64,000 nucleotides of DNA from Phascolarctobacterium sp. (GTDB lineage Bacteria > Bacillota > Negativicutes > Acidaminococcales > Acidaminococcaceae): assembly GCA_030540395.1 (NCBI GenBank), contig JAUNWI010000011.1, positions 1 to 64,000 of the forward strand. The letters run 5' to 3'. Shown here piece by piece: positions 276 to 17,728 of the stretch; positions within the stretch are counted from its first letter, which is position 1; every line of letters begins with the position of its first letter. The notes below the pieces were generated by a model. It was not told the origin of the DNA. It ran no database searches and was given only the letters and a program-made list of their open reading frames with translations. Both the position numbers and the translations under genes were made by a program.

Positions 276-3200
276 TCAAAACAAACTCGGCATCTCTCCA
301 TCATTCGTCACTTCCACCCTCGCCAAGCTCAGCACTTCCGCTTCTTCGCCAGCCAGATGCTTGCTTTTGAGGTACCGCACATGGCTCAGCTTGGAAGCAA
401 TGAGATTCAAAACATAAATATTATCGTAACAATTATAGATGGAATCACCACCCAGCCCCGTAAGGGAAATAAGCTGGGTGTTATTTTTGCGCGCCATGTC
501 CATCATGGGCGTCAACAGATGGGCCGCATTAGTCTGGGCGAAGGGATTATCCATAATCAGCACCTTGCCCTCGTTTCTATCGGCAAAAATATCGGTTTTA
601 TCCCGACGCATATAGTATAAAAGGCTGGACAAAATGACGAAAGCTGATAAAAAGCCCTCGCCGCCAGAATTACGCGCCACCTCGCGCCAACTAATGGGAA
701 CCTCCCGCTGTGCCTCGATTTTGTACAGCTTCACCCGCACATTGTTCAAGCCGATGACCTCATGATAAAGATTCTTCGTGGTCAAGCTCTTGCCCAAAAG
801 CTCTTCAATAGGTTTGTTCTGCTGTAGCAGTGCCAAGCCCTGCTCAGTCAGCTTCTCCACCAAATCCTTGATATGCAGGTGGTAAACATTGGCATTGTCG
901 TCCCAATTAGGCAGCTTCAGCTCCAGCATCTTCACCGCCCTGCCGCGCACCTTGATAGTAGAATTGTGGTCGATAGTCCCCATTTCCTTGTGCACGGCTT
1001 GCACGTAATCCTCCAGCAGCGTAACAACATGCTGCTTCTCCTGCTCCACGAATTCCAAATCCGCCTTCAGCTTTTCTGCTAGGGCTATCAATGAATCCAC
1101 GATCAGCTTTAGCTTCTCCAAAAAACCTTGAGCGCTCTCCGTCAGCATCTGCAAAGCAGCCAAGGGCTTGGTAAACAAATCGTCCTGCATAGCCCTCACG
1201 TTCAGCATCGTTTGCAGATTCTGCAGAATTCTTTCCAGCTTTTCTTGCGCCCTCTTCTGATTTTCGACACTATTTCGATATTCCTTCTGCAAATCCGCAG
1301 TATAGCGGCGCAATTCTTCGGCTGCGAAATCGGCGAAATTTTCTTCTCCACTCCACACAGCTTGCGTTTCTTGCCCACTAAAGGCCCCCAAAGCGCCGAT
1401 GTTTTCGTGGAAAAGCTTGCCTTGATTTTCCAGCTTGCGCAAATTTTCGTTGCAGCTGTGCTCCTGTCCACGCAACTGCCCCCGCAAAGCAGCAAAATCC
1501 TTGGCCACCAGCTCCTGCATGGGCAAAGGCTCGCGCTGCTCGCACTCTTTTTCCATGTCCTGCACCAGTCGTTGCTTGCGCTCCTGCACCTTGGCCAGCT
1601 GCATATTCGTCTCATTTAACCCTTGATAGGTCAGCTTTTGCTCATTTTCTGCAGCTTGTCTCTCCTTGGTAAACTCAACCACTTTCTCCCGATTGAAACG
1701 AATTCCTTGCCATACTTCAGGCTCCAAAGCGTAAAGGGCAGCTTGATTATCCAGGTCTTTTTGGCTATCTTGGACTTTTTTGGCAATTTCTGAACGCCTA
1801 TCAACTAAATTTTTTAGATCCCCTGACGCCTTCTTCATGATGGCATCAAAGCGCGCCTGCAACCCATCCATATCATTAAGCAATGCCAATTCAAAGCCCT
1901 TAGGCATCTTCGCCTGTTTATAGCTACTAAACTTGGTGAATACTTCCTCCACACCTTCTAGCTCATGGCGCAAATCATTCAGCTTGCCTAAATACTCTTT
2001 GCCGCGCTCCTGCAAAGCACTGATTTCTTTGTTTAGCTCCAGCATTTGCTGCTTCAGCTTGCGTAGCTGCTCCTCGCACTCCTGCTGCAAAGCCAAATGC
2101 TGCACATATTGCTTATACTTCTCGCCCAGCTGTTGGCATTCTTCCTGCTGCTGGGTAATTTTGCGCAGAGAATCCTCTAATTTCTTGACATCCTTAGCCA
2201 ATTCTTCCAGCTTCTCTTCCAGCTGCTTTTTGGCTTTCTTGGCAGCAATGTATTCCTCCTGCAAAGCCGCATCCTTATCCTGCAACGCAGCAAGCTCCTG
2301 CAACAGCTTGGTATAGCTAGCCTTAGTAAAGCTTTGCTGCTTCAGTTCACCATATTTGTTTTGGTAAGTGTCATATTCTTCCTTGCGCCGAGCCACCTTT
2401 TCTGCCAAAACGTTTTGCTCCTCCGCCAGCTTCTGCAACAGCTCCTGCAGCTTGGCTTCGTTGAGCAAATTGTTGTTAAACAGCATCAAAAAGTGCATGT
2501 CAGCACATTTAAATATGCCATTAGCCGATTTCTGCGTGCCAGCCTCCTTTAAGCTTTCGCGCAGCATAATGGGCACGGGGAAAGATGTAAAAATGGACTT
2601 AGGAGCCTGCTCTAAAAGTGCCACATCTTTAGCCGTCATAAGCAAGGAATAAGGCAAAAAGGGATGCTGCTCCACCAAAGCCAAGTTTTGTGCTTCGTCA
2701 TAGCCATTTTTCTTCAGCCATTCCATGCCGTAAACAAGCTGAATTCCCAATTGTTCCAGCATCTGCACCAATTCCGGCGCCAGCTCCAAGGTCCTGCCGG
2801 TTTGCAGGCTCTCCCTCTGCTTTTGCACCGCAACCAGCTCCTGCTGCAGCTTGTTTTTGCTGCTATCGATGGCCGTCAGCTTCAGTTCTAACGCTTTGGC
2901 TATTTTTTCTTGCTCAAAAAGATTTTCCTCCGGCAGCTGTAAATACTGTAGCAAAGTACGGCGCTTAGCTAGCTGCTCATCCACAAAAATCTTCTCCTGC
3001 TTTTTCAAAGCAAAGGCAGTCTTGTTAGCATTAAGCTCATTATTCACATCCTGCTGCTTGCGCTCCAGCTCCTTCAACGCCGTTTTTGCATCCTGCTGCT
3101 CCTTTTGGCACTTGTCCAAATTTTGCTTAGCCTCTGTTTGCGCGTCAGCTATTTTGGCAGCCAAAATCTCCAAGGTTCCAGCTTCGTACTCGCCCAACAT

Positions 3201-4700
3201 GTTCCTTTGCAAATCCACATGCCATTTCTTGCAAAAGCGATTCTCTTCCTCATCATAGGAGCCAACCAAAGTGTCCAAACGCCCCTTTTCTTTATTCAAG
3301 GCTTCAATGCGCTCTTGCAGCTTTTGCTGCTCCGCCTGAGTTTCCTTCAGCTTGGCAGCGCAAGCCTTGCTTTCTTCCTGCAGTGCGGCATAAGCTTCCT
3401 TGCCACTACGCAGCCGCTTTTCCCAATGCTGACGCAGCACGAAGCCAAGATAATCGCGCTCTGGCTCCAGCTCCTTGTTCTTGCGACGCAACACGTCCAG
3501 CTCCTGCTCCGCCCTCTTCAAGTCCAGCTTATCCGCATCCAAGCGTTCCTGCGCGCTAGCGCAATCATAAATATTCAGCTGCATTTGCAGCTCCTTGACC
3601 TTGCTTTCCAGCTCTGTGCGCCGCGCCTGCTGTGCCTCTTTTGTATTCGTCAATGCATCATCTTGCTCTGCCAATGCATAATATTGGGTGGAATACTCTT
3701 CATAGGCCAGACGCAAAAGCTGTTCGTGCAAGGACGCCAACTCTTCCTGACAAGCAACAGTAGCCTGCTCATTAATGGCCACCAAGCGTTGTAATTCTTT
3801 GAGATAGGCAAGAATCTTCTCCAGCTTCTCTTCCGAAATTCTCGTTGCCTCTGCATAGGCCTCGCCCTGCTCCTTGACCGGCCCCAGCTCTTGCAAAAAT
3901 TGCTGCAGCTTTTCCTGCTGCTCGATTTTCGTCACATTATCGCTGTAGGACTGAATATATTTGCCTAATAGCTCGCGAAACTTCTGCATCCTATTCTCGT
4001 CCTTGTTCAGCTTATTTTCCACAGCATCCAAGAACCACTTTTCCAGCAAACCCGTTTCATCCTTGCAGTCCACAAAAAGCTTGGACAGGCCCGATTCTTC
4101 CTCGTTGATTTTGCGAATAATATTCTGCCATTCCCGGTAATCGATGCCGTATTCTGCCAGCTTGGTGAAGTATTGCTTGCTTTGAGCCTGATTATTCAAA
4201 TCAAAGCAGAAGAATTTGTTGGGCTTTTCCTTTTTATAGCCTTCGAAAAGGTCGCGACACGCACCAAAGCTCTTCAAGCTTACCTCGTTCTCCTTGTGCT
4301 CCACCACGGGCAAATGATGAATATCCTGAACACATTGCTCCTTATACTCGCTGATAAGGGTCACCACATCCAGCTTCTCATCGTCATCAAGACTGGGATT
4401 TTTGTGCACCATCATGCCTGTCAGACAATAGCCACCATTATCCTCCAAAAGCCACTCCACCAAAATGAAGGATGGTTTGGTGCTGGTAAAATAGCTAGAA
4501 AAAGGCCGCCCCTTCACATTGCGATAGCGCTTCTGCACAAAGGGCGCTGTCAACAGCTGCACCAAAACCGATTTACCCCCGCCATTTTGCAGGGAAATCA
4601 AGGTACTTTGGCCGTTCAAATGCAACGTTTCATCGCTCACATGAATGGCATCATGATTGTAATTGACATTTATTAAACGAATAGCATTAATTTTGCTCAT
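276..4700 (-). CDS. jetC: Wadjet JetC: SMC-like coiled-coil ATPase
   Basis: A 1474-aa SMC/MukB-like ATPase, the DNA-translocating motor of a Wadjet plasmid-restriction complex. Residues 38-44 form the Walker A motif QNGGGKS. Some 1300 residues of heptad-rich coiled coil follow, and the C-terminal head carries an ABC signature (NSGGEGF, about 1344-1350) and a Walker B strand (VLIMDN, about 1380-1385), in which the usual DE is DN, a variant I associate with this subgroup. AGGAGTG precedes the ATG, which overlaps the jetB stop by 14 nt, so the subunits are translationally coupled. Known for the family: JetC with JetA (kleisin) and JetB (KITE) extrudes DNA loops, and JetD cleaves small circular DNA. 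The JetA/JetB partners resemble the DUF5716/DUF6063 type found in Clostridia, which I take to be Wadjet type III (moderate certainty). Confidence 0.9.
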   Translation of the reverse strand: MSKINAIRLINVNYNHDAIHVSDETLHLNGQSTLISLQNGGGKSVLVQLLTAPFVQKRYRNVKGRPFSSYFTSTKPSFILVEWLLEDNGGYCLTGMMVHKNPSLDDDEKLDVVTLISEYKEQCVQDIHHLPVVEHKENEVSLKSFGACRDLFEGYKKEKPNKFFCFDLNNQAQSKQYFTKLAEYGIDYREWQNIIRKINEEESGLSKLFVDCKDETGLLEKWFLDAVENKLNKDENRMQKFRELLGKYIQSYSDNVTKIEQQEKLQQFLQELGPVKEQGEAYAEATRISEEKLEKILAYLKELQRLVAINEQATVACQEELASLHEQLLRLAYEEYSTQYYALAEQDDALTNTKEAQQARRTELESKVKELQMQLNIYDCASAQERLDADKLDLKRAEQELDVLRRKNKELEPERDYLGFVLRQHWEKRLRSGKEAYAALQEESKACAAKLKETQAEQQKLQERIEALNKEKGRLDTLVGSYDEEENRFCKKWHVDLQRNMLGEYEAGTLEILAAKIADAQTEAKQNLDKCQKEQQDAKTALKELERKQQDVNNELNANKTAFALKKQEKIFVDEQLAKRRTLLQYLQLPEENLFEQEKIAKALELKLTAIDSSKNKLQQELVAVQKQRESLQTGRTLELAPELVQMLEQLGIQLVYGMEWLKKNGYDEAQNLALVEQHPFLPYSLLMTAKDVALLEQAPKSIFTSFPVPIMLRESLKEAGTQKSANGIFKCADMHFLMLFNNNLLNEAKLQELLQKLAEEQNVLAEKVARRKEEYDTYQNKYGELKQQSFTKASYTKLLQELAALQDKDAALQEEYIAAKKAKKQLEEKLEELAKDVKKLEDSLRKITQQQEECQQLGEKYKQYVQHLALQQECEEQLRKLKQQMLELNKEISALQERGKEYLGKLNDLRHELEGVEEVFTKFSSYKQAKMPKGFELALLNDMDGLQARFDAIMKKASGDLKNLVDRRSEIAKKVQDSQKDLDNQAALYALEPEVWQGIRFNREKVVEFTKERQAAENEQKLTYQGLNETNMQLAKVQERKQRLVQDMEKECEQREPLPMQELVAKDFAALRGQLRGQEHSCNENLRKLENQGKLFHENIGALGAFSGQETQAVWSGEENFADFAAEELRRYTADLQKEYRNSVENQKRAQEKLERILQNLQTMLNVRAMQDDLFTKPLAALQMLTESAQGFLEKLKLIVDSLIALAEKLKADLEFVEQEKQHVVTLLEDYVQAVHKEMGTIDHNSTIKVRGRAVKMLELKLPNWDDNANVYHLHIKDLVEKLTEQGLALLQQNKPIEELLGKSLTTKNLYHEVIGLNNVRVKLYKIEAQREVPISWREVARNSGGEGFLSAFVILSSLLYYMRRDKTDIFADRNEGKVLIMDNPFAQTNAAHLLTPMMDMARKNNTQLISLTGLGGDSIYNCYDNIYVLNLIASKLSHVRYLKSKHLAGEEAEVLSLARVEVTNDGEMPSLF

Positions 4701-5409
4701 CTTGTTTCACTCCTAGAATCCTCTGTACACGATAAAAATTATTCTTATTCAAAAGATTCCAATCCATGAAATTGTCCAGCTTGCGCGTAGTTTTTATCAT
4801 CTCGTCTTGCTCGATATAATCAATCAGGCCCTGGTCCTCCAAAAAGCGCAAAATATTATGGACAAAGCCTTCCTTGGTCGTCTTTTGTCTGCGTCCTTTT
4901 TCGTCGGACCTCAAGGAGTCATAAATCTGCTTCATGGCAGCAAAGGCCATCCCCTGCTGGGACTGCTCGTCCTCCGAGAATTTGGCCGCACCCTCCTCGA
5001 GCTTCGCAGCAATAGAATTTTGCAGTTCACCAACGCGAATAAAGTCCCTGGTTTTGCTGCTGCTGCCCTGTCCATCATAAAACTCCAGCAGCAGCACTAA
5101 AATGGCGAACTGGGCCAGATAAAAATCCTTGTCCGTGGGATTGCTTTTGCAAAGCTCTTTTTTGAGCTGGGCCTTGGAGTAGCCCAGAAAATAATTTTCC
5201 TCTTTGGGAATTAAATAAACAACCCCTGCAAAGGCCTCGATATGGCAATTGGCGATTTCCGCTTGGGATTTGACAATGTCCTGCACCTCGTCCTGCTCCA
5301 TATACGCCTTGTGCAAATCCGGCGCCTGCTCCTCTAAAAGCTCGTGGTGCTGCAGCAAATAATAAAACACCGCCTGTGCTTGCTTGATTACTTCCATCTG
5401 AATTGCCAT
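4687..5409 (-). CDS. jetB: Wadjet JetB (KITE-like subunit)
   Basis: About 240 aa, mostly helical, matching the small KITE/winged-helix subunit that bridges kleisin and SMC in Wadjet; it resembles the DUF6063 family. I chose the internal ATG (MAIQMEV) because GGAGAG lies 7 nt upstream and it begins 4 nt after the jetA stop; an in-frame ATG 33 nt earlier overlaps jetA and has no ribosome site. Its end overlaps jetC by 14 nt. Assignment rests mainly on size and on its position between JetA and JetC; no catalytic motif is expected or seen. Confidence 0.8.
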   Translation of the reverse strand: MAIQMEVIKQAQAVFYYLLQHHELLEEQAPDLHKAYMEQDEVQDIVKSQAEIANCHIEAFAGVVYLIPKEENYFLGYSKAQLKKELCKSNPTDKDFYLAQFAILVLLLEFYDGQGSSSKTRDFIRVGELQNSIAAKLEEGAAKFSEDEQSQQGMAFAAMKQIYDSLRSDEKGRRQKTTKEGFVHNILRFLEDQGLIDYIEQDEMIKTTRKLDNFMDWNLLNKNNFYRVQRILGVKQDEQN

Positions 5410-5413
5410 AATT

Positions 5414-7021
5414 TCACTCTCCGCTCGCTCTAAACATGACATCGGAACAACGAATATTCTTCAACAGGCCGCTCTGCTCGTCCAATTCCCGCAAAAGGAT
5501 GGGCTTGGCCTCTGGCAAACGCTCTACCTGCAATTTTTTCAGCCATTGCCACCGGGGATGCTTGTCCAAAATTTCCAAGAGCATGCCCTGCAAATGGAAA
5601 TCATTGGCCTCCTCTTGGATAAACTCTGCCCGTTCAGCCCGCAGACTAGCGATATCCAAGGTATTGATTTTCAACAGCTCCACCATGATTTCCTTGAAAA
5701 TGCCTATAGTCGGCACCAAGGCACACCGTTCGTCCTCATCCAGCTCGCCAATTAAAGTAGAAAGCTTCAGCTGGCGTTTCTCAACAACGTGGCTCACAAT
5801 AACAGTCAGGCTATCCTCGTAGAGGGCCAATTTTTCGGCGATGATGCGTCTTTGCTCCTTTTCCCATTCCTCCGCATCATAGGTTTCAATGGCTTCGTCG
5901 TCCCAGTCCTCCAAAGCGTGCACTCTCTGGGGCTCCAAAAAATTGTTCAAATTCACTGCTTTATCGGGATTTTGATTAAAGAGCGGACTGAAAAAGACCG
6001 CCAGCTCCTCCAAGCATTCCGGCTGCTGCAAAATTTTTTCGTATAGCTCCGTCCTCAGATTGAAGCGCTGCACCAAAGCCAATTCGGTCAGCTTGTCCAG
6101 CTCCACCTCGTAGACCTTCTTCAAATCAAAATGACTGTTTAAAATTCTTTGGTATTCGTCAATAGCGCGGCCCAAATATTGGTCTATTTCCCGCAGGTTG
6201 TGCAGCTTGGCTGTATCCTCGGTGCTCAGGACATGAATATTGATGTTCTGCTCCTCCAGCTCCTTGACTCTTTGCTGCACGTTCTTGCGATAACCAAGAA
6301 ACTTCACCTTGGTCTTATCAATGGTGTCGAGATTTTCCTGCAAAAGCTGTTTATATTCCGCAACGCTATATTCCAGAGCATTGCGCCGAATGCGCAGCAT
6401 AGCCCCTTGGATTTTTTGCAGTTGAATGCGCATTAGGTTAAAAATGTTTTTCACATCGTCCAAGGCACGGTCATAGCTCTGCTTTTGCAAATGGAGGCTG
6501 AAAATAATTTCCTGCACGCTCAGCTTCAGATTGCTCTCCACCTCCAGCGTTCCCAAAAGCAGATTATAACCATCGTCCGTGAGGAAATACGAGGTCCGCC
6601 GCACGTCCTGCTCATCATATACTATTTTGTTATTCACGTAGCTAATATGCAAATCCTCTTGTTTGTGCTCTTCGTAATTATAGGCAGCAAAGTACATGGG
6701 CTTACCCTCGTTGGAAAGCACCACATTAACAATAAAATCACCGAGCTCATGACAATCATCAGAACCCAGTGATTTTTTATAATACTGCCCATTGATGCTA
6801 TCGATAAAAGCAGCGATGTTATCCATGGTACAAATTTCTTCCTTCAAGGACTGCTCCATAATAAAAAGCAGTACGGAAAAAATCATATTCATTTGTTCGG
6901 ACAGCCCTTCAAAGCCCATTTGCCGCCAAATGGACTTTTGACTGCTGTTGGCCTGCAGCATGGCGTGCAAGCCCACGCATTTCATTCTTTTAGGGAATGC
7001 TTTCAAAAAATCGTATTGCAT
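5414..7021 (-). CDS. jetA: Wadjet JetA (kleisin-like subunit)
   Basis: About 535 aa, highly charged and helical with coiled-coil stretches in the middle and a winged-helix-like N-terminus. It matches the large non-SMC subunit (kleisin, DUF5716-like) of Wadjet complexes and should link the two JetC heads and hold JetB dimers. The start is the second of two adjacent ATGs, 6 nt after GAGG; an upstream TTG overlapping the jetD stop is less likely. The jetD stop codon lies within the ribosome site of this gene, so the genes are tightly coupled. Identity is supported by the neighbouring JetC and JetD, which have clear motifs. Confidence 0.82.
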   Translation of the reverse strand: MQYDFLKAFPKRMKCVGLHAMLQANSSQKSIWRQMGFEGLSEQMNMIFSVLLFIMEQSLKEEICTMDNIAAFIDSINGQYYKKSLGSDDCHELGDFIVNVVLSNEGKPMYFAAYNYEEHKQEDLHISYVNNKIVYDEQDVRRTSYFLTDDGYNLLLGTLEVESNLKLSVQEIIFSLHLQKQSYDRALDDVKNIFNLMRIQLQKIQGAMLRIRRNALEYSVAEYKQLLQENLDTIDKTKVKFLGYRKNVQQRVKELEEQNINIHVLSTEDTAKLHNLREIDQYLGRAIDEYQRILNSHFDLKKVYEVELDKLTELALVQRFNLRTELYEKILQQPECLEELAVFFSPLFNQNPDKAVNLNNFLEPQRVHALEDWDDEAIETYDAEEWEKEQRRIIAEKLALYEDSLTVIVSHVVEKRQLKLSTLIGELDEDERCALVPTIGIFKEIMVELLKINTLDIASLRAERAEFIQEEANDFHLQGMLLEILDKHPRWQWLKKLQVERLPEAKPILLRELDEQSGLLKNIRCSDVMFRASGE

Positions 7022-7029
7022 CATACACC

Positions 7030-8010
7030 TCAATAATCAAGCACGGTCAATATTTCTTGGGGTATGTATAAATTTTGCTCTAACAGCTTGCGCATATCCT
7101 CTTGCGTTGCGCCATCAAAATAGTCGAAGAAAAAGCCTTCCAGCTGGCGATTTTGTCCTTCCTTAGTGGTTGGCAGCTTGGCTATGCTCTTGCTTTTAGT
7201 GAGCATGAGCGCATAAGCCGCCACAAAGGGCTTAATTGCTGCTTGCTCTTTGAAGCAGGCAGCCAAGTTTTCGTAGATGCCGATGCCCTCGTAATCCAAA
7301 TCACCAAAATAGTAAAACGCATTATTCTCATTCAGCATATAAGGCTCGGCACTCAAAGCAAATTGCTGCATGCTGCTGATTACGCGTTTGCCAGAGCCAT
7401 AAATCAAGGTGCCAAATTCTTCGCCCAAAATGGTTTTGTGCCCGGCCAGCAAATGCCTGCGCATGCTGAAAAAGGTATCTTTGTTTTCTATAATTAAAAG
7501 CTTTTGCGGCGTTTTTCTGGTGAGGGTGAAGTAGGCAAAGGGCTCCGTAGTGCTGTAGCAATTGAGAAAAGCAAGGTCAAGGCCGCAATGCTTGAGGATG
7601 GTTTTGCCATTGCCTTGACTCAAGAACTTTTCGTAGCCCCAAATTTGCAAGCTCCGCTCGTTATAGGAGACCGCTGTCTGCAAAAGCTGTTTTTGCTTGA
7701 GCAAGAAGTCGTGCAGTTGGCGCACAGCCTCGCGATCTTTATCATAAACGGGCAAATTGTGCATATAATAGTCAATGTTAATACCAAGATCCATTTCGAA
7801 TAGTAACTCTTGCTCAAGGTTGGAATAATCCACCTGCTCGTCTATTAGCCAATATTCTAGGTACAACGCTGGTTTTTTGCCGTTCTTACCGGAGCTTTTG
7901 ACCGGCTTGATTTTGCCAGCGTCCAGCAAGCCCTTGATATACTCGTACTGCTCCAAATAAGGCGCACTATTCATTTCTCCCAAGATGGCTTCCAAGCTCT
8001 GGCGTTTCAT
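7030..8010 (-). CDS. jetD: Wadjet JetD: TOPRIM nuclease subunit
   Basis: About 326 aa. The C-terminal half has the TOPRIM metal site: a glutamate in LLIIENKD (near residue 178) and an acidic GDLDYEG (near 240), as in topoisomerase VI A-like JetD proteins (DUF2220). JetD is the nuclease that cuts circular plasmid DNA trapped by the JetABC motor. The N-terminal part (DUF3322-like arm) is shorter than in type I JetD. Of two in-frame ATGs, the second (8010) is preferred because AGAGG lies 6 nt upstream, whereas it abuts the first (8016). It is the first gene of the operon, which differs from the textbook A-B-C-D order. Confidence 0.85.
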   Translation of the reverse strand: MKRQSLEAILGEMNSAPYLEQYEYIKGLLDAGKIKPVKSSGKNGKKPALYLEYWLIDEQVDYSNLEQELLFEMDLGINIDYYMHNLPVYDKDREAVRQLHDFLLKQKQLLQTAVSYNERSLQIWGYEKFLSQGNGKTILKHCGLDLAFLNCYSTTEPFAYFTLTRKTPQKLLIIENKDTFFSMRRHLLAGHKTILGEEFGTLIYGSGKRVISSMQQFALSAEPYMLNENNAFYYFGDLDYEGIGIYENLAACFKEQAAIKPFVAAYALMLTKSKSIAKLPTTKEGQNRQLEGFFFDYFDGATQEDMRKLLEQNLYIPQEILTVLDY

Positions 8011-8070
8011 TTTCATCCTCTTTAGATACGGAAAGACTGTTTGGCTTTAACGAACAACATCGATACTTAT

Positions 8071-8107: not shown

Positions 8108-9400
8108 TCACGCCAATATCCTCTCATCTAACAAGAAATCATAGATATTGACAAACAGAATGCCATTGTCATCATAATAAGGCAATATTATATCTTTAGT
8201 CACGACAATCTTCTTAAAGGAATCATCGATATTCCTAAAGGGCCTGATTTCTTGATCATGCTTGTCTGCATCTGGCAAGGAATATGCTGACTGAATATAG
8301 TATCGGGATGCTCCCATATTGCAGACAAAATCAACTTCCAGCTGCTTTCGCGAAACCTTTCCATGCTCATCTTTGGCAGCAATCTGCACAACACCAATGT
8401 CAACATTATAGCCACGCCTGCACAACTCATTATAGATAACATTTTCCATGGAATGAGTTTGTTCAAATTGGCGGAAGTTAATTCTAGCATTACGCAAACC
8501 TAAATCAGTAAAATAATACTTTTTCGGAGTCTCAATATACGCTTTTCCTTTAATATCATAGCGTTGAGCTGATTTTATGAGATAGGAATCCTCGAAATAA
8601 CCTATATATTTGTTGATAGTATTCGCAGTTATCTTTGATTTCTTAACTGATTTAAAGGTGTTTTTCAGTTTCTCAGGATTAGTGAGTGAACCAATGGCAG
8701 AGGAGAGTATATTTAACAGTTCTTCTATTTCGCCTATATTTTTGATGCGATTACGCTTAAATATATCCCGCATATAGATTTCACTAAACAAATTTTGTAG
8801 AGTTAATGCCTTATCCTGTACATTTTCACGCAATACTACTAAAGGAATCCCTCCATAAAGCATGTATTCAGCCAAGCCAGTATATTTATCTCCAGGATGG
8901 ACAGACATAAACTCTGCAAAGCTCAAAGGATACATATGAATCTCGTCACCGCGCCCGGCGAACTCAGTAATTATATCTTTGGATAAAAACTTAGCATTGC
9001 TACCAGTAACATAAACATCCATATTACTTTTGCGCAAATATCCATTTAAAACAGCTTCAAAACAATCCATTAGCTGGACTTCATCCAATAAAAGATAATA
9101 ATTCTCCTCATCTACAATTTGAGACTGAATGTAATTTACGAATTTTTCTGGATCAACGCCACGTTTTTCTTTTTCCATTTGGATCAAGCTTTCGCCTATC
9201 AACTGTAAATCATCTGCTGAATCAAAGGCAAAACGAATAATATGGTTTCGTTGAATACCGCAATCCAATAAATGCTGATAAAAAATAGTATTTAATAAAT
9301 ACGATTTTCCACATCTACGAATGCCAGTAATGACTTTTATCAAGCCATTACCTTTTCTATCTATCAGTTTATCTAAATAAAAATCTCTTCTGATCTCCAT
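8108..9400 (-). CDS. AAA ATPase with C-terminal DUF4143
   Basis: A 430-aa protein of the AAA_14/DUF4143 family, which is common in gut anaerobes and whose function is not established. Walker A is GIRRCGKS (26-33), Walker B LLLDEVQ (about 103-109), and a conserved TGSNA motif follows near residue 140. The C-terminal third matches DUF4143, a region that resembles a PD-(D/E)XK nuclease fold in parts (DFVC followed by YIQSAY). AAGGAG lies 8 nt before the ATG. A paralogue of similar layout lies at 9616-10836, separated by hairpin repeats, so they were probably inserted or duplicated as accessory genes. Confidence 0.85.
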   Translation of the reverse strand: MEIRRDFYLDKLIDRKGNGLIKVITGIRRCGKSYLLNTIFYQHLLDCGIQRNHIIRFAFDSADDLQLIGESLIQMEKEKRGVDPEKFVNYIQSQIVDEENYYLLLDEVQLMDCFEAVLNGYLRKSNMDVYVTGSNAKFLSKDIITEFAGRGDEIHMYPLSFAEFMSVHPGDKYTGLAEYMLYGGIPLVVLRENVQDKALTLQNLFSEIYMRDIFKRNRIKNIGEIEELLNILSSAIGSLTNPEKLKNTFKSVKKSKITANTINKYIGYFEDSYLIKSAQRYDIKGKAYIETPKKYYFTDLGLRNARINFRQFEQTHSMENVIYNELCRRGYNVDIGVVQIAAKDEHGKVSRKQLEVDFVCNMGASRYYIQSAYSLPDADKHDQEIRPFRNIDDSFKKIVVTKDIILPYYDDNGILFVNIYDFLLDERILA

Positions 9401-9615: not shown

Positions 9616-10836
9616 TTAAGACAACATCAACTCTTTCTTATGCAAAAGAAAATCTATTATATTCATGTGTATAATCCCGTTCTGGCTCATATCTATTTTA
9701 TCCAAAGACAGCACATATTTAGGCGAAGCATCAGTTATAGGCTTAAACGCTCCAAATTCCCTTTCTATGGTTGAGGGACTAGCTAACAAATAGGCCACCT
9801 GAATGAAGCACTTCTTGCCATCCTTTATAGCCACAAAATCAATTTCTCCCTTATATGTCTTGCCAACATAAACAGTAAATCCCTGCACACACAGTTCGTT
9901 ATAGATTACATTTTCCAAAAAGAAGGTGTCTTCATAGTTTATGGAATTGGTATTAATCGTTCTAAAGCCAGTGTCTGTAGCATAAAACTTCTCTTTTGTT
10001 TTCAACGCCTCTTTCCCTACAATATTGTATCTGGGCACAGTATGCAAAAGATAGGACTTGCGCAGCTTATCGAGATAATTATACACAGTCCTTTCAGACA
10101 CCACCTTCTTGTTATTCCTAGTAAAATAGTCTGCTATGTTGGCCGCCGAAAACTCCTTACCAGCATTTGCGAGTATATACAAGGATATATGTCTAAAATT
10201 TTGTTTATCAACATTCTTCCCTTTTTTGATAATATCCTTGTTGATGATACTATCATACAGATTAGTAATATATCTTCTTACAGAAGCTTCATCATGAAAG
10301 TTGTATCTAAGAGGTAATCCACCCCATTTAATATAGTCATATATGTCATCCTCAGAAAATGTTTCCCCATTGAGTTCTCGGTACGCTTTCGCTTCTAAAA
10401 AAGAAAAAGGAAGTACTTCAAACTCTACAGTTCTACCAGTCAATAAGCTTGCCAACTCTCCCGATAATAATGTTGAATTGCTGCCTGTAACAAAAATAGA
10501 TACATTTAGCGTCGCTCTAAACGACGCTAATGCCTTTTCAAAATTCTTGACGTGCTGTATCTCATCTAAAAACAGATAATACTTTTCTGCATCCACTATA
10601 CTGGCCTTAATTGTATTATGTAAATCACTAGCAGTTTTGATGTACTCATAATCCATATCTTCAAGATTGATGTATATGATATGACCTGCATCAATTCCCT
10701 GCTGCAACAGCTCATCTTTAATGGTCTCCAACAAAATTGATTTGCCTGCACGCCTAACTCCAGTGATAACTTTAATTAAATCGGCATCATAATAAGGACG
10801 TAGCTTTTGTAAATAGGCTTCTCTTATCAGCTTCAT
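9616..10836 (-). CDS. AAA ATPase with C-terminal DUF4143 (second copy)
   Basis: A 406-aa paralogue of the ATPase at 8108-9400. Walker A is GVRRAGKS (26-33), Walker B LFLDEIQ (88-94), with a TGSNS motif following. The C-terminal DUF4143 part contains EIDFVAIKDGKK and CFIQVAYL, an arrangement like a PD-(D/E)XK core (E...D...Q/K), though nuclease activity is unproven. AAAGGAG precedes the ATG. The two proteins are clearly diverged, so this is an old duplication or independent acquisition rather than a recent copy. Confidence 0.85.
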   Translation of the reverse strand: MKLIREAYLQKLRPYYDADLIKVITGVRRAGKSILLETIKDELLQQGIDAGHIIYINLEDMDYEYIKTASDLHNTIKASIVDAEKYYLFLDEIQHVKNFEKALASFRATLNVSIFVTGSNSTLLSGELASLLTGRTVEFEVLPFSFLEAKAYRELNGETFSEDDIYDYIKWGGLPLRYNFHDEASVRRYITNLYDSIINKDIIKKGKNVDKQNFRHISLYILANAGKEFSAANIADYFTRNNKKVVSERTVYNYLDKLRKSYLLHTVPRYNIVGKEALKTKEKFYATDTGFRTINTNSINYEDTFFLENVIYNELCVQGFTVYVGKTYKGEIDFVAIKDGKKCFIQVAYLLASPSTIEREFGAFKPITDASPKYVLSLDKIDMSQNGIIHMNIIDFLLHKKELMLS

Positions 10837-13451: not shown

Positions 13452-14654
13452 TTAGAAAGTGAAGTACAGGTCAGCGTACAACAGTTGAGACTTCTCGCCA
13501 CCAACTTTAGCCTTGGTGTCATAGTAGCTCAGTTCGCCAACAATGTTCTTAGCAATTGCATAGTTAGCAACTACACCATAACCCTTGAAGCCAGTCAACT
13601 TATCATCTTTTACGAAATCCCAAGTAGCATCAGTGGTTTGAGAAATAATGGTGTTGCTAGGTTGATCAAAGTAAGTTGCGGTCAAGCCCCAGGTACCCGG
13701 AGTAGCAGCGTCAGCACCCTTGTATGCCAAGGAAGCTACCCAACCATCTTTGGATACACGATCATCATACTCATCAGCAGCAGTGATGTATTCATAGCCC
13801 AAGGTCAAGTCTTTAGCAACTTCTAAGGATGCACCAACATTGTAGAGTTCTGCATTATCGTCGCCAACGATACCTTTAGTGGAACCAGTGCCTTTTGCAT
13901 ACATAGCGAATGCATCAACAACACCAATCTTAGCATTTACGCCAGCCAAATATACACGGTCAGCACCAGTTTTGGTAACTTCATCAGCCTTTTGAACCAT
14001 GCCCCAAACTTTTACTTTATCGCCATAGGTAACCTTGATACCATCACCAGTAATATCAGCTACGTTACCAGTGTTTGCAACTTCATCCCAACGACCAGCG
14101 CGCACAGCAAGACCACCAATTTTGCCGTCAACATAAGCGCGTTTAAGCTTCAGTTCATCTTCAGCATCCTTGTCATCAAATTCTTGCTCGCTTTGCAGCA
14201 TGCCAGTGTATGTCCAATCATCATTTACTTGACCAGCTACCCACAGACGAGTACGCAGGGTGGTGTCATCTTTGTCACCATCAGCCTTGTAGTCATGTAC
14301 GTTGCGGAAACGAACTTGACCAGTAATCTTAACATTGTCAGCTTTCTTTTCCAGTTTAGCAACGCGAACGCCCAGGTTATCCAGCTCATCAGCAAATTCA
14401 GCAGCCAGTTTGTCAACGTTAGCGCCTTTTGCCATTGCACGAGCAGTGATTTGAGCCATTTCATAACGGGTCATCAGCTTGTCGCCACCAAAGGTGGTGT
14501 CGCCATAACCATCAATAACGCCAGCAGCTGCCAATTTAGCGATGCTGTCATATGCCCAGTGGCCAGCAGGAACATCAGAGAACGGGCTAGCAGCGTATGC
14601 AGAAGCGGTTACGCCCAAAGCCATAGCCATTGCGAGTACTAAGGATTTTTTCAT
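13452..14654 (-). CDS. SLH-domain outer membrane porin (OmpM-like), copy 1
   Basis: A 400-aa exported protein. Signal peptide about residues 1-21 (MKKSLVL...SAYAA), then one SLH domain (FSDVPAGHWAYDSI to about residue 80) that in Negativicutes anchors the outer membrane to cadaverine-modified peptidoglycan, a short coiled coil (LDNLGVRVAKLEKKAD), and a beta-barrel that ends in aromatic LYFTF. Barrel strands are typical of a general diffusion porin. GGAGG lies 8 nt before the chosen ATG; an upstream in-frame ATG lacks a ribosome site. A paralogue of the same length lies at 16526-17728; SLH regions are nearly identical and barrels diverged. Promoter at 14830-14858 gives a leader of about 170 nt. 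Confidence 0.9.
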   Translation of the reverse strand: MKKSLVLAMAMALGVTASAYAASPFSDVPAGHWAYDSIAKLAAAGVIDGYGDTTFGGDKLMTRYEMAQITARAMAKGANVDKLAAEFADELDNLGVRVAKLEKKADNVKITGQVRFRNVHDYKADGDKDDTTLRTRLWVAGQVNDDWTYTGMLQSEQEFDDKDAEDELKLKRAYVDGKIGGLAVRAGRWDEVANTGNVADITGDGIKVTYGDKVKVWGMVQKADEVTKTGADRVYLAGVNAKIGVVDAFAMYAKGTGSTKGIVGDDNAELYNVGASLEVAKDLTLGYEYITAADEYDDRVSKDGWVASLAYKGADAATPGTWGLTATYFDQPSNTIISQTTDATWDFVKDDKLTGFKGYGVVANYAIAKNIVGELSYYDTKAKVGGEKSQLLYADLYFTF

Positions 14655-14738
14655 TGTAAATTCCTCCAATAGAATTCAAATTTGTGAATCCTCATTAGCT
14701 TGCAAATTGCACCTCGAGCGCTCTGCTTCAACCTTCAT

Positions 14739-14936: not shown

Positions 14937-15512
14937 TTAAGCAATATAATTGGGACTGTTATACAGTAGCACCACTTCACCAGAATCAGAATCAATTTTT
15001 TCTTTCCTTAACATGGTTAACTTCATTTGATTGGCAGTATAGTCCTTTTCGGATTTAGAGAAGAAAGACACCCCAACATAATGTTCTTTAAACGAAATCA
15101 TAAAATAATAATTCGTATTATCCTTCAAGCTCCCTTTCAGCAAATAGTCAGCTACTATGCGTGAGCCTTTGGCTTTCTTTATATCGTATTTAAAAACATC
15201 ATTAGCAGTATCTATAAAATGCTCAAGACATCCTAAGCACTTAATTCTGCCTTCTATTTCAAAAAATCTATGAGAGCTCTTGATGGTATCAAGTGTAATC
15301 TGCCCTTTAAGGATTTTCTTAAACACGATACTTGCGTTGGTTCTCAATGCAGGAATGTCATCTAGTTTATGCAAACCTGCCAAATGATAAAAATCTATTG
15401 CTGTGAACACGAGCTCTAGCCTGTGTAGCTTCTTATTCTTACCCAATGTGAAAACATATTTTTTGCTCAGCATTTGGTTATAGTTTTGAGCTGCTTGCAA
15501 AAGGTCATCCAT
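14937..15512 (-). CDS. PBECR4-like RNase-fold protein
   Basis: About 191 aa. The pattern FYHLAGLHKLDD, then F..ILKGQIT and a C-terminal EHYVGVSFFSKSEKDY resembles PBECR4 proteins (phage-Barnase-EndoU-ColicinE5/D-RelE-like nuclease 4), a predicted RNase-toxin fold found in Firmicutes and phages. Start ATG 15512 has AGAGG 7 nt upstream; the ATG 6 nt earlier is too close. A strong terminator (15527-15558) stands 10-15 nt upstream of the ribosome site, so expression must depend on read-through of the upstream RNA. No protein antitoxin is adjacent. Nuclease activity is not established. Confidence 0.6.
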   Translation of the reverse strand: MDDLLQAAQNYNQMLSKKYVFTLGKNKKLHRLELVFTAIDFYHLAGLHKLDDIPALRTNASIVFKKILKGQITLDTIKSSHRFFEIEGRIKCLGCLEHFIDTANDVFKYDIKKAKGSRIVADYLLKGSLKDNTNYYFMISFKEHYVGVSFFSKSEKDYTANQMKLTMLRKEKIDSDSGEVVLLYNSPNYIA

Positions 15513-15526
15513 ACACATACCTCTCA

Positions 15527-15558
15527 AAGAAAAAAGGCCCTGCAACAGCAAGACCTTT
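15527..15558 (-). terminator. Strong terminator between structured RNA and PBECR4 gene
   Basis: On the minus strand AAAGGTCTTGC pairs with GCAGGGCCTTT (11 bp, two wobbles, TGTT loop), then TTTTTTC. It lies just before the ribosome site of 14937-15512. Confidence 0.85.
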
Positions 15559-15708
15559 AAATGCTATTAAGCGGTTTTCTTTCAGTCCACAAGAACCTAT
15601 TCGTATCACGGTACTACCGCAAACCTACTAGTAAAGCTCCATAAGCCCCCGCTACGACTCGTGACTTACTTCTACGCTTAGCCAGGCATCTAATGTGCTT
15701 AGGCTTCT
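15527..15708 (-). ncRNA. Structured RNA of about 180 nt upstream of the RNase-like gene
   Basis: Driven by a consensus promoter (15715-15743) and ended by the terminator at 15527-15558. Its ends can pair: segment 15686-15693 with 15557-15564 (8 bp) and 15675-15680 with 15568-15573 (6 bp). Inside, 15658-15666 pairs with 15584-15593 (9 bp, one bulge) and 15653-15657 with 15601-15605 (5 bp); a small hairpin lies at 15609-15619. The result is a rod broken by internal loops. Direct repeats of CATTAGA(A/T)GCCT and TAAGC lie at the 5' end. No coding frame of note. I know no Rfam family that fits by eye; 6S-like RNA or a type III antitoxin are the leading ideas. Confidence 0.6.
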
Positions 15709-15714
15709 AATGAT

Positions 15715-15743
15715 ATTATACTCACCTTTACCTATAAAATCAA
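15715..15743 (-). promoter_or_regulatory. Promoter of the structured RNA
   Basis: TTGATT (15738-15743), 17 bp, TATAAT (15715-15720) on the minus strand; start predicted near 15708. Confidence 0.75.
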
Positions 15744-16525: not shown

Positions 16526-17728
16526 TTAGAAAGTGAATACCAATTCAGACCACAGGGTTTGGTTGTCACCATCGCCTTCGCGAGCTTCCAGATCATAGTA
16601 CTTAACAGCAGCAACAATGTTCTTAGCTACAGTGTAGTTAGCACCAACTTCGAAGCCTTTGAAGCCATCGGTAGCCACATCATCTCTAACCAAGGTAAAG
16701 CCATCGCCTTTACCATAGCTGGAAACGGTCGGTTTCAGATAGGTAGCAGCCGGTTGATCAAAGTAGTTTGCATACAGGCCCCAAGAACCAACATTAGCAG
16801 CTTTAGCGCCTTTATAAGCTAAGCCAAATACATAACCATTGTTATCGCCATCGTAATCATCAGCATCACCGTTCAGGTATTCAGCAGACAATTTCAGGTC
16901 TTTAGCAACCTTCAGAGCAGCACCAACATTGTAGATTTCTTGACCGCAGTCGTCAACCTTGAAATAGGTTGCGAACACATCAACAACACCCAATTTGGTG
17001 GAAACGTCAGCTACATACACACGATCATCAGCTTCGCCAGTTACGCTAGGAACAGCTTTGCCAGCAGCCAAGGTCAATTGTACGTCTTTGCCATAGGTAG
17101 CTTTTACGCCGTCCATGGTTTGGTCCAGAACGGTACCAGCGTGCATCTTCAGGTCACGACGACCAGCGATAACCTTCACACCGCCCAGCTTACCTTCCAT
17201 GTAAGCCCAGTTCAGCTTAGTCTCGTCATCTTTGGCATTTGTCTCGTTGTTGTTGTTCTTGAGGTCTTGTTCGTTTTGGAAACGACCATTGTAAGTCCAA
17301 TCCTCATTTACTTTGCCACTGATGAACAAACGAGTACGCAGTTTGGTTGCATAAGCACCTTTGTCAGGAGCTTGATAGTGAGCACGGATTTGGCCAGTGA
17401 TCTTTACATTGTCAGCTTTCTTTTCCAGGTTAGCTACGCGAACGCCCAGGTTATCCAGCTCGTCAGCAAATTCAGCAGCCAGTTTGTCGCAGTTAGCGCC
17501 TTTAGCCATAGCTTTTGCTACGATTTGAGCCATTTCATAACGGGTCATCAGTTTGTCGCCGCCGAAAGTAGCGTCGCCATAACCTTCGATAACGCCAGCA
17601 GCAGCCAGTTTGGAGATGCTGTCATATGCCCAGTGGCCAGCCGGAACGTCGGAGAACGGGTTAGCAGCGTAAGCGGAAGCGGTTACGCCCAAAGCCATTG
17701 CCATTGCGAGTACTAAGGATTTTTTCAT
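16526..17728 (-). CDS. SLH-domain outer membrane porin (OmpM-like), copy 2
   Basis: A 400-aa paralogue of porin 1. The first 115 residues (signal peptide, SLH domain, coiled coil LDNLGVRVANLEKKAD) are nearly identical, while the beta-barrel differs and ends ELVFTF. Such pairs allow exchange of barrels on a common peptidoglycan anchor. GGAGG lies upstream of the ATG, the promoter at 17934-17962 gives a leader of about 200 nt, and a dedicated terminator lies at 16451-16480. Expected location: outer membrane, with the SLH domain in the periplasm. Confidence 0.9.
   Translation of the reverse strand: MKKSLVLAMAMALGVTASAYAANPFSDVPAGHWAYDSISKLAAAGVIEGYGDATFGGDKLMTRYEMAQIVAKAMAKGANCDKLAAEFADELDNLGVRVANLEKKADNVKITGQIRAHYQAPDKGAYATKLRTRLFISGKVNEDWTYNGRFQNEQDLKNNNNETNAKDDETKLNWAYMEGKLGGVKVIAGRRDLKMHAGTVLDQTMDGVKATYGKDVQLTLAAGKAVPSVTGEADDRVYVADVSTKLGVVDVFATYFKVDDCGQEIYNVGAALKVAKDLKLSAEYLNGDADDYDGDNNGYVFGLAYKGAKAANVGSWGLYANYFDQPAATYLKPTVSSYGKGDGFTLVRDDVATDGFKGFEVGANYTVAKNIVAAVKYYDLEAREGDGDNQTLWSELVFTF

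Follow-up and report, generated by a model that had tools for sequence, protein, structure and literature searches.

The window (the whole 64,000-nt stretch of DNA that was analysed) carries on its minus strand a promoter, a structured RNA, a Rho-independent terminator and a protein-coding gene, in that order. The sigma-A-type promoter (TTGATT-17-TATAAT, 15743–15715) matches the consensus at 10 of 12 positions, and transcription is expected to start at about 15708. The transcript would be about 180 nt long (15708–15528, both ends being inferred from the promoter and the terminator), with a conserved core at 15679–15567. An 11-bp terminator hairpin followed by a T run (15558–15533) separates the RNA from the gene and has a counterpart in nearly all relatives. 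The gene is an open reading frame of 191 codons whose ATG lies at about 15512 and whose stop codon ends at 14937; a Shine-Dalgarno-like GAGAGG (about 15525–15520) precedes the ATG. The promoter, the position of the RNA, the terminator ahead of the ribosome binding site and a PBECR4-like gene had all been placed here by the original prediction and were found as described. That prediction also held that long tandem repeats of the ToxI type are absent, and the repeat score of the RNA was indeed only 1.0 (shuffled sequences: mean 0.6, maximum 3.0). A TATAAT-like box recurs at the equivalent position in most relatives; promoter-like sites numbered 6 against 5.3 by chance, that is, no excess.

Two similar SLH-domain porin-like genes (13452–14669 and 16526–17728, minus strand) flank the RNA and its gene, an arrangement that looks like an insertion into a tandem pair of porin genes. 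An apparently full Wadjet (JetABCD) set lies about 7 kb downstream (276–8016, minus strand); JetD was identified with PADLOC (3e-115), and the three genes beside it were named by Wadjet order and size only, one of them encoding a 1474-aa coiled-coil ATPase. Two related AAA ATPase genes (8108–9400 and 9616–10836, minus strand) matched the PADLOC candidate defence family PDC-S01 (1e-113 and 3e-136).

The protein belongs to the Pfam family PBECR4 (PF18813; 101.2 bits against a cut-off of 27, profile positions 2–185 of 188). An AlphaFold2 model based on 33 sequences, with two plasmid rows left out, had a pLDDT of 96.6 and a pTM of 0.90. Because the first seven proteins were too diverse for a pattern search, a four-sequence alignment was used instead. 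His43 and Gly46 are invariant in all 35 of 35 PBECR4 proteins. His43 falls within helix 38–44 of the model, and Thr166 lies near the C-terminus, a C-terminal Thr not being universal in the family; the window protein is thus predicted to combine a catalytic His in an N-terminal helix with a C-terminal Thr/Ser. Structural matches were weak (Z 2–4), with BrnT at the head of the list and RelE, HigB, ParE and contact-dependent-inhibition toxins in many rows. These matches to the model agree with the Pfam fold assignment, short of proof. In the PDB, Foldseek returned nothing with E below 0.001, a profile search of solved structures gave no relative, and neither PADLOC nor NCBIfam had a match for the putative toxin; the only PHROGs match was phrog_3446, a family of unknown function.

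A tblastn search of phage records with three PBECR4 proteins returned a single weak match (E 0.2), to the S. suis phage Javan577. Here an unannotated PBECR-like ORF follows the lysin gene (about 2670–3440 of L067). Ahead of the ORF come a promoter-like site, a gap large enough for such an RNA and then a terminator, possibly a phage-borne version of the same arrangement.

Identity and structure of the RNA

A scan with Rfam identified the RNA as drum (RF02958; 58.0 bits against a gathering score of 43, full length 1–112). This was the only significant match across the region, and no 6S family was among the matches; the abiF RNA motif (RF03085) and the AbiF protein were likewise not found here with Rfam and Pfam. 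Model R1, which was built from 35 drums with the window drum among them, gave 74.7 bits over 15710–15567. drum is an orphan family that carries no type beyond sRNA (PMC7779021; PMC7657543; PMC11974997). The Rfam scan had been put forward as a check on the original prediction; it did match a known family, but one with no assigned role and tied to PBECR4 as described below.

The rod-shaped structure that had been drawn for the RNA equals its minimum-free-energy fold (−52.9 kcal/mol), yet 31 of 200 shuffled sequences folded as well (z −1.04). This fold is neither conserved nor better than that of shuffled sequences, and it was rejected as the functional structure. The conserved structure was drawn by hand and comprises a 5′ hairpin, helices P1, P2 and P3, and two pseudoknots. 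It was scored on 35 sequences and 31 pairs, with 89.3% of the cells paired compared with 69.8% for shuffled and 33–44% for slid alignments, a figure favoured by our having drawn the structure with the same 35 sequences in view. The covariation score was 0.62 (0.26 shuffled, 0.10–0.16 slid). Changes on both sides of a pair, which are the stronger evidence, occurred in 243 cells versus 75.

Mapped to the window (minus strand), P1 (15679–15676/15637–15634) and P2 (15669–15665/15645–15641) are separated by K-turn-like tandem G-A pairs, the whole element including the P2 loop spanning 15679–15634. P3 is formed by 15625–15623 and 15612–15610. Pseudoknot A joins the P2 loop to the strand after P3 (15658–15654/15604–15600); it is paired in 97.7% of cells in the 35 sequences, with both-side changes at 5 of 5 pairs. 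Pseudoknot B pairs 15620–15617 with 15574–15571. The K-turn and covariation at 22 of 29 pairs in drum have already been published (PMC11974997). The expectation that the stems would covary was therefore borne out for the RNA, but in stems other than those originally drawn.

Association of drum with PBECR4

The source genome contains one drum and one PBECR4 gene, adjoining each other. Among 398 genomes of the phylum, drum was found in 3 and PBECR4 in 4, and the two that have both carry them side by side; in a third genome, G222, the PBECR4 gene has upstream of it a drum whose score just equals the gathering score. Among 391 genomes of another class, drum occurred in 18 and PBECR4 in 28. Both were present in 14, compared with 1.3 expected (Fisher p 6e-15, the species not being independent since a Monoglobus-like genus, g282, supplies several joint genomes), and they are adjacent in 12 of the 14. 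Counted by genus, 8 of 11 drum genera also carry PBECR4, which is present in 19 of 222 genera.

A search for the protein only (GTDB and IMG/VR) recovered 31 PBECR4 loci, and in 23 of these a drum above the Rfam gathering score lies directly upstream on the same strand. A refined RNA model added upstream drums in three more (L012, L013 and L033; 74, 70 and 41 bits) and weak ones in L037 and L038 (12 and 19 bits), but this model was trained partly on such loci and the unbiased figures are therefore the Rfam ones. drum was present at all PBECR4 plasmid loci tested: the Enterococcus and Streptococcus plasmids L008–L011 (4 of 4 with Rfam drum), and L068 and L069 (92 bits with the refined model). 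TIR/AAA genes adjoin the module in L069, and AbiH in L010. From these data we conclude that drum and PBECR4 constitute one module that is found across many unrelated bacteria and plasmids. The co-conservation on which the original prediction depended is strong.

Several loci show variations on this arrangement. The PBECR4 proteins of L027 (366–1565; 400 aa) and L036 (3998–4885; 296 aa) are extended at the C-terminus, and both are encoded behind a drum. L006 and L065 contain CCCTAGCTTCGGGACGTAAAATATAGAAGC inside a divergent drum-like RNA. Three loci from Bacilli MAGs (L039–L041) have a different RNA in common, with a terminator, upstream of PBECR4. This third RNA (GACGGGAG..GTAGCCCCAGCCTAGCTTCGGCGACCT...) lies between the promoter and PBECR4, upstream of position 4001 in L039 and L040 and of position 397 in L041.

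The 30 PBECR4 genes of the 391-genome set were grouped by the RNA that precedes them, the last of the groups given here being assigned partly by eye. Twelve have an adjoining Rfam drum and one has a drum at the cut-off (G222). Five (L088–L091 and L098) have a divergent drum that scores 14–32 bits with model R1 and keeps the pseudoknot letters GTCAGG...CCTGAATAGG. Eight have tandem-repeat RNAs, three (L078, L093 and L094) have RNAs of other kinds with a terminator-like hairpin after them, and one (L080), with its 5′ end cut off, has none. In four of the tandem-repeat loci (L077, L079, L082 and L095) we found two copies of a 52–58-nt unit that are 69–85% identical, above all 40 shuffles; L072, L083 and L084 have corresponding units with indels, which were not significant in an ungapped test. 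In L092 the repeat is a 32-nt unit present twice (69% identity, also above shuffles), and each copy could form an H-type pseudoknot (AAGGTC/GACCTT with GGAACAG/CTGTTCC, and CGGTC/GACCG with GGGATGG/CCATTCC). Most of the tandem-repeat loci also have a terminator, and their RNAs had no Rfam match at the gathering score. These repeats reproduce the ToxI arrangement at the equivalent place within the PBECR4 family, and the loci are unannotated type III-like loci that lack an Rfam family.

Terminators, gene loss and proposed function of the module

In most loci the terminator begins 0–15 nt past the end of drum, and the distance from the end of drum to the start codon is 36–118 nt (median 51.5). 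In the unbiased set, a terminator was found within 125 nt for 21 of 24 PBECR4 genes compared with 112 of 389 control ORFs (29%; p 1e-8), the controls including spurious ORFs; our script chose a later hairpin in L022 and L026 and found none in L020. The terminator sequence varies freely between loci, and a conserved expression platform was not seen.

drum survives where the gene does not. The RNA is intact although PBECR4 is frameshifted in L025 and truncated in L052, L053 and L059, and in an E. gallinarum plasmid (L066) PBECR4 is internally deleted while drum is intact at 94.5 bits. Solo drums occur in L003, L048 and L051, and as a repeated unit in L058 and L060–L063. Conversely, among the loci found, an upstream RNA was never missing where the 5′ end of PBECR4 was intact. 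Although the numbers are small, this one-way loss fits an RNA that would neutralise the protein in trans and is a poor fit to a pure cis-regulator. The repeated unit, which belongs to two Monoglobus-like MAGs, is a multi-copy intergenic element with conserved flanks that contains drum without PBECR4; three of its five copies lie close to contig ends.

Taken together, the sequence data strongly suggest that drum is the antidote of PBECR4, a predicted RNA-cutting toxin. We consider it probable that the two make up a type III-like toxin-antitoxin family in which a BECR-type RNase is paired with a single-unit, pseudoknotted RNA antitoxin. The type III-like layout of the original prediction is backed by co-conservation, by covariation and by the tandem-repeat RNAs of sister PBECR4 branches. 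In the proposed mechanism, the sigma-A-type promoter would direct synthesis of abundant drum RNA, most of which would end at the terminator, and occasional read-through would yield PBECR4 mRNA. Because the mRNA would arise only from this read-through, the RNA would be in excess over the protein. PBECR4 would be a metal-independent endoribonuclease that uses His43 and Thr166, and the doubly pseudoknotted drum RNA would bind it and block its activity. When transcription stops, as in phage attack or plasmid loss, the unstable RNA would disappear first, and the freed RNase would cut RNA, leading to growth arrest. Such a module might serve in defence or maintenance.

The same layout would be expected if drum were a cis-acting attenuator or riboswitch-like leader, in which a bound ligand or protein sets how much transcription passes the terminator into PBECR4, the RNA doing nothing in trans. 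Both the short, regular gap and the terminator that separates RNA from gene at nearly every locus would fit, and the AbiF/RCd22 precedent likewise includes attenuation at its terminator (PMC12373285). However, drums outlast lost or broken genes, which disfavours a pure cis-regulator; drum ends just before a terminator that varies freely and shows no conserved expression platform, and sister PBECR4 genes have antitoxin-type tandem-repeat RNAs at the equivalent place. We regard a purely cis-acting role as unlikely.

We also considered an RNA-protein effector in which drum, as a cofactor, sensor or guide, would switch on or steer the nuclease instead of inhibiting it. Strict co-conservation and a complex RNA fold would fit this reading too, as would the defence-like surroundings (Wadjet in the window; TIR/AAA and AbiH on plasmids). 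Against it, the RNA remains when the gene goes, which is the pattern expected for an antitoxin, and PBECR4 genes that keep their 5′ end always came with an RNA. drum shows conservation or covariation along most of its length with no guide-like variable segment seen, and PBECR relatives are predicted stand-alone RNases (PMC5512222). An effector of this kind therefore seems very unlikely. The further suggestion, that the RNA is 6S-like or some other rod-shaped housekeeping RNA and only happens to lie next to the gene, would suit the length and the rod-like minimum-energy fold, but it has almost no chance of being correct given that Rfam calls drum and no 6S family, that the rod is no stabler than shuffles and differs from the conserved structure, and that drum and PBECR4 occur together far more often than expected.

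Returning to drum as an antitoxin, we favour, with less confidence than the toxin-antitoxin assignment itself, a broader proposal. The PBECR4 family may be a second, independently evolved type III class built on a BECR RNase instead of a MazF-like one, and its RNA antitoxin would have been replaced several times (drum, divergent drum, two 52–58-nt tandem repeats and two 32-nt pseudoknot repeats); solo drums may be decoy antitoxins. A drum antitoxin for PBECR4 would mean that type III toxin-antitoxin systems are not confined to the ToxN fold, and would illustrate how RNA antitoxins of the single-unit and tandem-repeat kinds take each other's place inside one protein family. Both the orphan Rfam family and PBECR4, of which only a predicted fold was known, thereby acquire a function that can be tested. 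Because the module is carried on Enterococcus and Streptococcus plasmids and also lies beside defence genes, its possible part in maintaining plasmids or resisting phages is directly testable.

Comparison with known systems

Known type III systems consist of a single promoter, a repeat RNA, a Rho-independent terminator and a ToxN, CptN or TenpN toxin with a MazF/Kid-like fold (PMC5086642). The drum-PBECR4 module resembles ToxIN, CptIN and TenpIN in having one promoter, an upstream noncoding RNA, a Rho-independent terminator and then a (predicted) endoribonuclease gene, all of which can be read from the sequence. The RNA is pseudoknotted, the loci are both plasmid-borne and chromosomal, and sister PBECR4 loci even have tandem-repeat RNAs, the repeats being clear in L077, L079, L082, L092 and L095. 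The systems differ in the toxin, which here is PBECR4 of the BECR type, and in the RNA: ToxI, CptI and TenpI are short tandem-repeat arrays, whereas drum is a single unit of about 145 nt with a K-turn and two pseudoknots. The window RNA has no tandem repeats above the shuffled range. For the protein, Pfam gives PBECR4 only, with no ToxN, CptN or TenpN family, and PADLOC gives no match. Because the drum branch departs from the named families in both its repeats and its toxin, we call it type III-like and place it outside them.

PBECR domains are described as weapons of phages or conjugative elements, located within large proteins or solo (PMC5512222). The available part of that account does not mention an RNA partner for the PBECR domains of polyvalent proteins, unlike the drum-linked PBECR4. 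drum, of which the window RNA is a member, had no link to PBECR4 or any toxin in the literature searched, the scope of which did not extend to the original description of the family (Weinberg 2017, doi 10.1093/nar/gkx699). This suggests that, within that literature, this kind of toxin-antitoxin system is itself undescribed.

The closest tested precedent for the proposed mechanism is AbiF/RCd22 of Clostridioides difficile (PMC12373285). It too has a sigma-A promoter, a structured noncoding RNA, a terminator and a toxin gene, and RCd22 matches a family from comparative searches (Rfam abiF, RF03085; PMC12373285). Its protein is AbiF, and its RNA consists of two small abiF motifs, which distinguishes it from drum-PBECR4. 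In that system the toxin protein is neutralised by its RNA, while the amount of toxin mRNA is kept down by the terminator (PMC12373285).
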